Assembly (NCBI GenBank): GCA_951813325.1
Contig: OX638350.1
Span: forward strand, 310,001 to 374,000
Length of the DNA stretch: 64,000 bases
DNA from: an uncultured Acidimicrobiales bacterium
GTDB lineage: Bacteria > Actinomycetota > Acidimicrobiia > Acidimicrobiales > Bin134
Reading direction: 5' to 3'
Shown here: positions 8,986-12,045 of the stretch, piece by piece
Layout of the letters: every line of letters starts with the position of its first letter
Position numbering within the stretch: the stretch's first letter is position 1
Made by a program: the position numbers and the translations under genes
The notes under the pieces: generated by a model
The model's database searches: none
Told to the model about the DNA's origin: nothing
The model's input: the letters and a program-made list of their open reading frames with translations, nothing else

Positions 8986-9309
8986 TCAGCTTGAGATGGC
9001 TAGGGCGGCGATGGCTGCGGCGAGGCCGAGGGTGAGGCTGATGGTGGCGTAGGCGGCGGCCCGCTTGCGGCCCAAGGTGGTCAGCTCCACGGCAAAGGTG
9101 CTCAGCGTGGTCAGCGATCCCAGGGCGCCCACGCCCACCGCGGTCATCACCGGATTGCCACTGCCAGCCAGCAGGCCCAAAGCGAAGCTGCCGGCTATGT
9201 TCACTCCCAGAGTCCCCCAGGGCCAGGTTGGCGCATTGAACCTCTGAGCAGCCTCAGCCCGAACCAGCGCTCCGGCCACCGCCAGCACCACGAAACCGAG
9301 CGCCGTCAT
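8986..9309 (-). CDS. crcB: CrcB/FluC-type fluoride channel subunit (second copy)
   Basis: A 107-residue, four-helix membrane protein. It carries the FluC signatures GTLGVNIAGSFALGLL and GVGALGSLTTLSTFAVE, where the conserved Asn and the Phe/Ser/Thr track line the fluoride pore. The ATG at 9309 overlaps the stop of the upstream crcB (ATGA), so the two genes are coupled. Paired crcB genes are common in Gram-positive bacteria and can form heterodimeric channels in which the subunits are inserted in opposite orientations. The longer open frame upstream is the shadow of the other crcB. Confidence 0.9.
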   Translation of the reverse strand: MTALGFVVLAVAGALVRAEAAQRFNAPTWPWGTLGVNIAGSFALGLLAGSGNPVMTAVGVGALGSLTTLSTFAVELTTLGRKRAAAYATISLTLGLAAAIAALAISS

Positions 9310-9698
9310 GAAGTCGCCCGCCAACGGGTTGTTCGCAAGGCCGCGCCAACCAACGCCAAGGCCACCCCGCCCGCCACCGAGACGGCCAGATAACCGGCGG
9401 CAAAGCCCCAGTCGCCGTCTCGGGCCATCTCGGCCACGTCCACGGTCAGCGCCGAGAACGTGGTCAGGCTGCCGCAGAAGCCGGTCCCCAGTCCGAGGCT
9501 CACGGGAAGCTGGGCCCGGGCCGACCACGCGGCCGCGGCCACATAGCCGAGCAGCAGGCAGCCAGCCAGATTGACGGCCAGCACTCCCCACGGCCAAGTG
9601 TCGGAGGCGGGCAGCACCTCGACCAGCCCCCAGCGCCCGCCGGCCCCGGCCAGCCCGCCTAGCCCGACAGCAATCGCGGCCCGTGGTGCGAGAGACAA
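9306..9698 (-). CDS. crcB: CrcB/FluC-type fluoride channel subunit (first copy)
   Basis: A 130-residue, four-helix fluoride exporter subunit with GGLAGAGGRWGL, WGVLAVNLAGCLLLGY and GTGFCGSLTTFSALTVD. It is the upstream member of the crcB pair. The probable start is a TTG at 9698, one base after the ccdA stop. The frame offers no ATG or GTG closer to the conserved N-terminus. The start is therefore moderately uncertain while the family call is firm. Tight packing behind ccdA suggests one minus-strand transcript from tlpA through crcB. Confidence 0.9.
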   Translation of the reverse strand: MSLAPRAAIAVGLGGLAGAGGRWGLVEVLPASDTWPWGVLAVNLAGCLLLGYVAAAAWSARAQLPVSLGLGTGFCGSLTTFSALTVDVAEMARDGDWGFAAGYLAVSVAGGVALALVGAALRTTRWRATS

Positions 9699-9699
9699 G

Positions 9700-10827
9700 C
9701 TATGCGCTACCGCTCTCGGCCAAGGGCGGGCCGGGGCCGTTCCGGGGCCGAAGGCGAATCCACAGCACGATGCCCACGATCACCGCCAGCAGCGCCTCCC
9801 AGAAAACCGGCCACCGGCCAGGATCGGTGAACCAATTGCCCACTCGCTCGGGGATGGCCGCAATGGTTCGCACGATGGGCAGTATCAACAGGTCGCCCTG
9901 GTACTTGTCGGCCTCCGCCACCCCATATCCTGCGGCCACCACTGCACTGGCTGAAAGGAGCCAAGGCCGGGGAATGCTGCGGCGGAACGCCCAGAGCAGC
10001 AGGGCCAGCACCACGATGGCGGTGGCCAGGCCGAAGCGGTTACCGCCCACGTCGATGATCCAGTTCTCCAGTCGGTTGGAAACCATGTAGGAGGCTTCGA
10101 CGAATGGATTGGTGGCTTCGAAGTCGTCGCGCAACAGCACTTGGACCTCCCACCAGCCGTAGAACCCGAGCACCACGCCGGCCACCACCAAGAAGCCGCC
10201 TGAAATCTTGTTTATGTGGGGCAACAGGCGGCGCATGTTGGCGGTGACCCCCGAGCGCCCCATGGCCACTGCCAGAGTCAAGAAGGTAATAACCAACCCC
10301 ATGCCCAGGGCGTAGGCCAAGAATCGCAGGGTTCCCTCCCACACCCCATCGGTGCTGAACGAGCCGCTCACGCTGCCGAAGAACACCGGGCTGGCGCATC
10401 CCAGCGACACCACTGCATAAGACACCCCGAACAAGAACATGGAGATCAGGCCCTGGCTGTCGCCTCCCTTGGACAGTCGGGGCACGGAGATCTTGGGCTC
10501 GAAGCCGGCCAGCATGGCGATGCCCAGCACCACCATGAGCCCGCTGATCACCAGCGTGATCCACGGACCTCGGTCGGCAATGGTGGAGGTGGAGATGAGC
10601 GACGAGGTGAGCGCGCCGATGATGCCGAAGAAGGCCACGAATCCAGCAGTAAGGGTGAGCCCGACCAGCAATCCTCGAAGGACGTTTCGCCCGGTGTCCG
10701 CCGCCTGGTCCGCACTGCCGATACCCAGGAAGTAGGCCAGATAGGCCGGAAGCATGGCGAAACCGCACGGGTTGACCGCGGCGACTAGACCGGCCCCGAA
10801 GGGGACTGCCAGATCGAGGTCGAACAC
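9700..10827 (-). CDS. ccdA: Cytochrome c biogenesis protein CcdA (DsbD transmembrane family)
   Basis: Moves reducing equivalents from cytoplasmic thioredoxin across the membrane to extracytoplasmic thioredoxin-like proteins that keep apocytochrome c cysteines reduced. The family signatures NPCGFAMLPAYLAYFLG (about 19-35) and SLGCASPVFFGSV (about 147-159) each supply one of the two redox cysteines. The 375-residue protein has the six-helix core plus about 150 extra C-terminal residues with two or three more hydrophobic stretches. That is longer than a minimal CcdA. It starts with GTG 10 nt after the TlpA-like gene, its likely partner. Confidence 0.93.
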   Translation of the reverse strand: MFDLDLAVPFGAGLVAAVNPCGFAMLPAYLAYFLGIGSADQAADTGRNVLRGLLVGLTLTAGFVAFFGIIGALTSSLISTSTIADRGPWITLVISGLMVVLGIAMLAGFEPKISVPRLSKGGDSQGLISMFLFGVSYAVVSLGCASPVFFGSVSGSFSTDGVWEGTLRFLAYALGMGLVITFLTLAVAMGRSGVTANMRRLLPHINKISGGFLVVAGVVLGFYGWWEVQVLLRDDFEATNPFVEASYMVSNRLENWIIDVGGNRFGLATAIVVLALLLWAFRRSIPRPWLLSASAVVAAGYGVAEADKYQGDLLILPIVRTIAAIPERVGNWFTDPGRWPVFWEALLAVIVGIVLWIRLRPRNGPGPPLAESGSA

Positions 10828-10837
10828 AACTGGAAGG

Positions 10838-11332
10838 TTACGAGGTGAAGTAGGTACTTAGGTGTTGAGCGATCTGGTCGGCGGTCAGGCCGCCGGTGTG
10901 CTGATAGACGACCTCTCCGTCGGTGGCAATAAACAGGGTGGTGGGCATCCCCAAGATCTCATAGGCATTGCCGATGGCAGAGTCCGGGTCCACTCCTGTG
11001 GGATAGGTCACCCCGGTATCGGCCACGATCTCCCGGGCCCTCGTGGGGGTGTCGTTGAAGGCCAGTCCAACGAAGGCGATGTCCGGCCTCTGTTGGTGGA
11101 CGGACTCCAGAGCGGGCATCTCGGCAATGCACGGCGTACACCATGAAGCGAAGAAGTTAAGCACGACAGGACGGCCAATATAGGCGCCCACCGTGGTCGA
11201 GCCTCCGTCGAGCAGCTCGAACTCAATGTCAGCGGCTTGGACGTCGTCGCCGGCCCCTGAACCACAGGAGCCGGCGACGACGGCGATCAGCACGACGGCG
11301 ATCAGAACCAGCGGGCGGTTCCGCCCGGCCAT
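10838..11332 (-). CDS. TlpA/ResA-like thioredoxin lipoprotein
   Basis: A 164-residue exported thioredoxin-fold protein. A short signal sequence leads to a lipobox-like AGSC (Cys about 23). The redox motif WCTPC lies in NFFASWCTPCIAEMP (about 60-75) and the cis-proline is in GMPTTLFI. TlpA/ResA proteins reduce the heme-binding CxxCH cysteines of apocytochrome c. The adjacent ccdA is the expected electron donor, and many c-type cytochromes are encoded in this window. The ATG overlaps the TAA of a 5-codon frame that links it to whiB. Confidence 0.92.
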   Translation of the reverse strand: MAGRNRPLVLIAVVLIAVVAGSCGSGAGDDVQAADIEFELLDGGSTTVGAYIGRPVVLNFFASWCTPCIAEMPALESVHQQRPDIAFVGLAFNDTPTRAREIVADTGVTYPTGVDPDSAIGNAYEILGMPTTLFIATDGEVVYQHTGGLTADQIAQHLSTYFTS

Positions 11333-11349
11333 TAGGCCAAACCGGCCAT
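11332..11349 (-). other. Candidate bridging micro-ORF (5 codons) between whiB and the TlpA-like gene
   Basis: Encodes MAGLA. Its ATG overlaps the whiB stop (TGATG) and its TAA overlaps the ATG of the thioredoxin gene (TAATG). The 16-nt gap is thus bridged exactly, as at several plus-strand junctions. Confidence 0.3.
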
Positions 11350-11687
11350 CAGGCCGAGCGGAGCCGCTCTCGCAAGTGCTCGGGCACCGGCACCTGGAGG
11401 AACTCGTCCTCGGGGCGGGGCACCTTGGCCGGACGACCCCGACGACGCTTGCTGGTCAGCACCTTGCCGTTGCGGAACAGCTGGCCTCCCCATACTCCCC
11501 AAGGCTCGCTGCGGGCGATGGCGCCCTCCAAGCACTGGGCCATCACCGGGCACTGGGCGCAGATGGCCTTGGCCTGGGAGATGTGCTGGAGCTCGTCGGA
11601 GAAGAAGATCTCCCCGAGCGAGGCGTCGTCGGTTCGGCACGCGGCGTCCACACGCCACGGTGCGTTTTCAAAGAGCAGCGCCTCCAT
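11349..11687 (-). CDS. whiB: WhiB-family iron-sulfur transcription regulator
   Basis: A 112-residue regulator that in this family binds a [4Fe-4S] cluster and often partners with the principal sigma factor. The four cluster cysteines are visible: one in DAACRTDD, two in AICAQC, and one in MAQCLEG. The GVWGG turn follows in EPWGVWGGQLF, then a basic C-terminal tail (KRRRGRPAK) for DNA contact. The ATG at 11687 has a strong AAAGGAG Shine-Dalgarno. The longer in-frame extension is leader RNA. The leader holds a 35-codon uORF, a terminator-like hairpin and an alternative pairing segment, suggesting attenuation. Which WhiB subtype it is cannot be decided here. Confidence 0.95.
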   Translation of the reverse strand: MEALLFENAPWRVDAACRTDDASLGEIFFSDELQHISQAKAICAQCPVMAQCLEGAIARSEPWGVWGGQLFRNGKVLTSKRRRGRPAKVPRPEDEFLQVPVPEHLRERLRSA

Positions 11688-11755
11688 GTCTTTCTCCTTT
11701 CGGGGGTCTTCGGTTGGGTGTTTCCCATCGATTGGTTGGTGGTGGGCGGAAACTG

Positions 11756-11783
11756 AAAAGGCCGCCGGATTTTTCCGGCGGCC
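11756..11783 (-). terminator. Terminator-like hairpin in the whiB leader
   Basis: GGCCGCCGG (11760-11768) pairs perfectly with CCGGCGGCC (11775-11783), with one further A-T pair closing a TTTT loop. Read on the minus strand, the stem is followed by TTTTC. It lies about 70 nt upstream of the whiB start and 29 nt after a uORF stop. It could be an intrinsic attenuator or the end of a separate small RNA. Confidence 0.65.
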
Positions 11784-11835
11784 TCGGCAGATATTTGATC
11801 CTTGTAGGTGCTCTACGTGGACCCTCCCCGAGGCC
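11780..11835 (-). promoter_or_regulatory. Candidate antiterminator pairing in the whiB leader
   Basis: On the minus strand GGCCTCGG (complement of 11828-11835, inside the last codons of the uORF) is perfectly complementary to CCGAGGCC (complement of 11780-11787). The second segment contains the first GGCC of the terminator stem, so the two structures exclude each other. Ribosome position on the uORF could therefore choose between them. Confidence 0.5.
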
Positions 11836-11920
11836 TGGTGCCGGCAGTCTTGTGACCGAACACGCATGGTGTCTGGTTGGTGAGCCAATACCCGTGGCGA
11901 ATTCGGGCCATGTCAGCCAT
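11813..11920 (-). other. Candidate 35-codon upstream ORF in the whiB leader
   Basis: An ATG frame on the minus strand begins MADMARIRHGYWLTNQTPC, contains VFGHKTAGTRPRGGST near the end and stops with TAG. It ends 29 nt before the terminator-like hairpin. Its codons 30-32 hold the antiterminator segment. No clear Shine-Dalgarno is visible. Another whiB-family gene (whiB7) is known to be controlled by a leader uORF, which makes the arrangement plausible, but the peptide is not one I recognise. Confidence 0.4.
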
Positions 11921-12045
11921 CGCTACGCGCAAGGCTCGGCTTTGAAAGCCGAATGCGGGATAGCTCCTGCTGGACATGGCCACTACTCAACAGTGTATTG
12001 AGCGCGATGTCAATTTGTTTCCCGAAGAAATCTCACAGACGCCCA
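11921..12045. other. Intergenic region upstream of the whiB leader
   Basis: No gene was identified. The region holds a perfect inverted repeat TCGGCTTTGAAAGCCGA at 11936-11952 and must contain the whiB-leader promoter. A convincing -35/-10 pair could not be singled out. Confidence 0.4.

Follow-up and report, generated by a model that had tools for sequence, protein, structure and literature searches.

A very likely whiB7/wblC-type, ribosome-sensing transcription attenuator ahead of whiB7 in a marine acidimicrobial actinobacterium

The leader described here lies on the minus strand of a 64,000-nucleotide stretch of DNA (the window, meaning the whole stretch analysed) from an uncultured Acidimicrobiales bacterium. 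The gene downstream of the leader (11349-11687, minus strand, ATG at 11687) encodes a 112-aa protein with a four-Cys WhiB domain, an EPWGVWGG motif and an AT hook, RRRGRPAK, and is preceded by a Shine-Dalgarno sequence, AAAGGAG, at 11694-11700. The product was assigned to the Pfam family Whib (6.4e-18), and its top PDB match was M. tuberculosis WhiB7 (2.5e-18), with which the EPWGVWGG motif and the AT hook align; the next family, WhiB1, scored 1.1e-9. Six WhiB genes were found in the genome, and this one alone has an AT hook. Because its best solved match is WhiB7 and it is the sole AT-hook WhiB among the six paralogs, the gene is, by its sequence, whiB7 itself, whose product regulates the response to antibiotic stress. 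Upstream, the minus strand carries in order an AT-rich box, a promoter, an upstream open reading frame (uORF), a hairpin with a U tract and the AAAGGAG; hairpin, TTTT, AAAGGAG and whiB ATG all lie where an earlier note on this DNA had placed them.

A ResA/TlpA-type thioredoxin-like gene begins 16 nt past whiB7 and is followed by a DsbD/CcdA-type membrane protein gene (9700-11332, minus strand), and the three genes look co-transcribed. A thioredoxin CxxC motif was also found downstream of whiB7 in L007-L011, L018, L020, L023, L032, L066 and L073, and a link between WhiB7 and thiol redox is possible. Two overlapping small membrane-protein frames at 8986-9698 (minus strand) resemble a CrcB/Fluc fluoride channel pair, as judged from their translations alone.

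For comparison, a scan of genome contigs yielded 80 loci, mostly from Acidimicrobiia, the nearest being those of Sva0996 bin134 and Candidatus Poriferisocius. When 41 genomes representing 20 families of the order were searched, 38 had the whiB7 gene, among them those of all genus members but one. Ilumatobacter nonamiensis (L054), a cultured relative, also has the leader.

The promoter (11985-12013, minus strand) consists of a -35 element, TTGACA (12013-12008), a 17-nt spacer and a -10 element, TTGAGT (11990-11985). In the genus, the promoter can be read at 17 loci, and the -35 and -10 elements are identical in all of them; TTGACN-17-TTnnnT was found in most whiB7 leaders of Acidimicrobiia. A generic sigma-70 scan did not flag the TTGACA/TTGAGT promoter, because of the T at position 2 of the -10 element. 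The box AAACAAA (12014-12020, minus strand) adjoins the -35 element upstream and is a candidate site for the WhiB7 AT hook; an AT-rich stretch precedes the -35 in most leaders of Acidimicrobiia, and without exception in those genus members whose promoter can be read. A genome scan with a strict pattern for further WhiB7-type promoters found none, and a second pattern, WWWTTGAC-N18-TWNNNT, matched once in the 3.59-Mb genome, at the whiB7 leader promoter; the regulon is therefore not outlined by pattern scanning. In two relatives (L018 and L020) an extra inverted repeat, GTCAAAATAATTTATTAATTTGAC, lies ~350-370 nt before whiB7 and overlaps the -35 region of the promoter; it is possibly the operator of another regulator.

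The uORF (11813-11977, minus strand; MSSRSYPAFGFQSRALRVAMADMARIRHGYWLTNQTPCVFGHKTAGTRPRGGST) has 54 codons, starting with an ATG at 11977, 7 nt past the -10 box, and ending with a UAG at 11815-11813. The earlier note had reported a uORF of 35 codons at 11920-11813; that open frame is present, and its start was set 19 codons too far downstream. We take the uORF to have probably 54 codons rather than 35 because the ATG at 11977 is kept throughout the genus and the internal ATG at 11920 is not, another residue standing there in L092, L095 and L101. Whole-codon insertions and deletions are tolerated in the genus (L093, L101, L104, L106 and L107), and stop codons are absent from the frame. A uORF of at least 48 codons whose end lies 16-48 nt ahead of the hairpin was found in 56 of 57 non-redundant leaders, mostly from Acidimicrobiia, where dinucleotide shuffles led us to expect 6.3. 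The pN/pS ratio of codons 1-40 among close relatives was 0.5-1.1, with no strong purifying signal, so that the coding claim rests on conservation of the frame and not of the peptide. Constraint on the peptide itself appears weak, as would be expected if the position of the ribosome matters rather than the peptide.

At each of the 17 genus loci whose promoter can be read, a gap of exactly 7 nt separates the end of the -10 box from the uORF ATG, and this geometry suggests that the uORF is probably leaderless. Elsewhere the gap was 7-10 nt in several lineages and 37-100 nt in others, some of which have a Shine-Dalgarno sequence. When 53 gene-length ORFs of the window were examined, TAnnnT boxes peaked sharply 6-7 nt ahead of the candidate start codons, so that leaderless mRNAs seem to be frequent in this genome.

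Past the uORF lies a predicted intrinsic terminator, GAGGCCGCCGGA-AAAA-UCCGGCGGCCUU followed by U residues (11756-11785, minus strand), identified by a terminator scan. Its hairpin (11783-11760) is a perfect GC-rich stem of 10 bp, with TTTT at 11759-11756. The terminator core, (G)AGGCCGCYGGG...CCCGGCGGCCTT, occurs in almost all whiB7 leaders of Acidimicrobiia, and every terminator pair is kept in the genus alignment. The hairpin stands 70 nt from the whiB7 start here and 38 to 322 nt from it in relatives. An Rfam search at the gathering score found no known RNA family (riboswitch, T-box or others) in the window other than a tRNA elsewhere.

The end of the uORF can pair with the 5' arm of this terminator. 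The 5' strand of the predicted antiterminator, GGCCTCGG (11828-11835, minus strand), occupies uORF codons 48-50 and has an outer extension, CCGGC, at 11844-11840; the 3' strand (11775-11787, minus strand) consists of CCGAGGCC at 11787-11780 and GCCGG at 11779-11775 and overlaps the terminator 5' arm. The earlier note had recognised that GGCCTCGG is complementary to CCGAGGCC and had proposed that antiterminator and terminator exclude each other, with the uORF as part of the switch. The complementarity (11835-11828 with 11787-11780) is exact, the proposal is well supported by the comparative evidence, and the covariation check in related genomes that the note had suggested was run, with base changes tracking the antiterminator. 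In the window the predicted pairing of the uORF end with the terminator arm was 4.2 SD stronger than in shuffles, and of 62 related loci 48 exceeded shuffles at p<0.05. Duplex energies averaged -21.9 kcal/mol, compared with -18.1 when the arms were swapped between loci.

Position 5 of the terminator 5' arm is U instead of C in 11 non-redundant loci; not all of these count as independent events, since related lineages have in part inherited their arm changes in common. In these loci the partner in the uORF is A in nine and G in two, and the partner in the terminator 3' arm is G in all 11. In eight of the nine cases the A completes a CGA codon, apparently through a synonymous change from CGG to CGA. 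Since the uORF partner changes and the terminator partner stays G, the covariation follows the antiterminator: a U-G wobble is tolerated in the terminator, and pairing is restored in the antiterminator. In the genus alignment 95.4% of cells were paired, three pairs were changed on both sides, and none of 500 shuffles was as good; the antiterminator 5' strand was paired in 100% of cells, with C-G changed to U-G in five rows. One of the three two-sided changes, a compensatory change from G-C to A-U, lies inside GGCCTCGG/CCGAGGCC (L101). When a covariance model built on the genus was run against the other loci, it recovered the element ahead of whiB7 in most of them, and it had no hit at the five WhiB paralog loci searched. 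Judged by covariation, the predicted antiterminator is real. Comparison of the leaders thus shows the parts, their conservation, their mutually exclusive pairing and its covariation, and it shows, at the level of sequence, an attenuator conserved across the class Acidimicrobiia.

These data bear on the possibility that the uORF encodes a small protein as a gene in its own right, closed by a terminator of its own, with whiB7 driven independently or by leaky read-through. A long frame with its own promoter and a strong terminator behind it does have a monocistronic look. However, the constraint on the peptide is weak, yet the pairing of the last codons with the terminator is conserved with covariation, including the apparently synonymous change from CGG to CGA. 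The 70 nt between hairpin and whiB7, and the minimum of 38 nt in relatives, also leave little room for a second promoter, and a promoter scan found none in the window. We therefore consider a separate gene very improbable.

Nested in the loop of the antiterminator is another predicted hairpin, GGUCC-AC-GUAG-AGCAC-CUAC-AA-GGAUC (11797-11823, minus strand), which encloses the uORF stop codon UAG (11815-11813). In the genus 98.6% of the cells of this hairpin were paired, with a G-U/A-U/U-A change at one pair. The fold of the stop region had a mean z of -2.4 and p<0.1 in 49 of 58 leaders. A hairpin enclosing the stop codon was found in nearly all leaders, its sequence differing by lineage (for example GACGTAA..ACGTC, CAGCTGA..CAGCTG or GTAG..CTAC), and also in several non-acidimicrobial leaders (L075, L078, L081 and L084). 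No description of it was found in those parts of the literature on whiB7/wblC leaders that were accessible, and no novelty is claimed for it. We tentatively raise the possibility that the stop-codon hairpin has a function in whiB7 attenuators generally, so that release from the uORF and not only elongation would be sensed, and that the sensor frame is leaderless in several acidimicrobial lineages, where leaderless initiation would then be part of the signal.

From this arrangement we infer how a ribosome-sensing attenuator would work, including the leaderless start, termination, induction by stalled ribosomes and autoregulation. Transcription would start at, or a few bases from, the ATG at 11977. 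A ribosome that has passed through the 54 codons would pause at the stop codon, opening the stop-codon hairpin and covering both it and the antiterminator 5' strand; the GC-rich terminator would then form, and the transcript would end near 11756. If ribosome-targeting antibiotics or amino-acid shortage slow the ribosome or halt it at an earlier codon of the uORF, codons 48-50 would remain free to pair with the emerging terminator 5' arm, the terminator would be pre-empted, and RNA polymerase would read into whiB7. WhiB7 would in turn activate its own promoter through the AT-rich box beside the -35 element.

Predicted folding energies are consistent with this order of events. The leader RNA up to the terminator 5' arm folds at -35.8 kcal/mol, compared with -23.0 +/- 3.0 for shuffles. 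For an RNA polymerase that has only just cleared the 5' arm, the antiterminator fold is predicted at -35.8 kcal/mol without a ribosome and at -14.2 with a ribosome at the stop codon, so that termination would be favoured once translation is finished and read-through when it stalls. Over the whole length of the leader the terminator is the more stable fold at equilibrium (-42.8), even with a ribosome upstream, and the switch would therefore have to be kinetic, the choice being made during transcription.

The element shares its logic with the ilvB1/ilvBNC leader-peptide attenuators of actinobacteria (PMC13236596), in which the position of a ribosome on a short frame also picks antiterminator or terminator; those attenuators sense branched-chain amino acids by a run of sensor codons, whereas the whiB7 uORF here has no such run. 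An attenuator of the trp or ilv type, specific for one amino acid and bearing a run of sensor codons in its uORF, would have the same three-part anatomy, and a Trp codon does occur in many uORFs of the relatives. Nevertheless, no run for a single amino acid is present in the window uORF, the peptide composition drifts from lineage to lineage, and the controlled gene is whiB7 and no biosynthetic enzyme. Amino-acid sensing was rejected on these grounds, and we regard it as highly improbable. Leader uORFs of erm-type genes act by translation attenuation, masking a Shine-Dalgarno sequence. Such masking at whiB7, with transcription not ended, was likewise rejected and is the least probable of the readings weighed here, because the hairpin has a U tract and stands ~55-60 nt ahead of the Shine-Dalgarno sequence, and because relatives differ widely in how far it is from the whiB7 start (38 to 322 nt).

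The element is very likely the whiB7/wblC ribosome-sensing transcription attenuator of an acidimicrobial actinobacterium. A mechanism with the same parts has been published for whiB7/wblC (PMC10727445, PMC9618640, PMC11550727, PMC4128351 and PMC13393426), and the uORF attenuator of Mycobacterium and Streptomyces is credited to Lee, Lee and Roe 2022 in PMC10727445, PMC9618640 and PMC11550727. The present leader agrees with the known system in having downstream a WhiB7-type gene (four-Cys domain, WGVWGG and AT hook), a uORF ending just ahead of the terminator, an antiterminator formed from overlapping uORF and terminator sequence, a predicted Rho-independent terminator between uORF and whiB7, and a promoter with an AT-rich stretch beside the TTG of the -35 element, resembling those of WhiB7 targets. 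The earlier note had called the design analogous to that of whiB7 but different-looking. Since the gene is whiB7 and the layout matches the published attenuator (PMC10727445, PMC9618640 and PMC11550727), the element is very likely a member of the known whiB7/wblC attenuators and not an analogue. It differs from the members described there in belonging to the class Acidimicrobiia and in its uORF peptide; its uORF start is also leaderless by geometry, whereas the M. bovis and M. marinum uORF has a Shine-Dalgarno sequence (PMC4128351). No earlier report of a whiB7 leader attenuator in Acidimicrobiia was found in the accessible parts of the literature, where co-mentions of WhiB7 and Acidimicrobiia concern other matters.

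This reading would place the whiB7 ribosome-stress attenuator in Acidimicrobiia, a class whose members come from the sea, from sponges and from fresh water and are for the most part uncultured. Should its leader be shared through inheritance, the switch would be older than the divergence of this class from the actinobacteria that produce antibiotics or cause disease. The large number of natural variants yields strong covariation data for the antiterminator, from which the bases that matter can be told, and draws attention to the stop-codon hairpin and the leaderless sensor frames as candidate refinements of the model.
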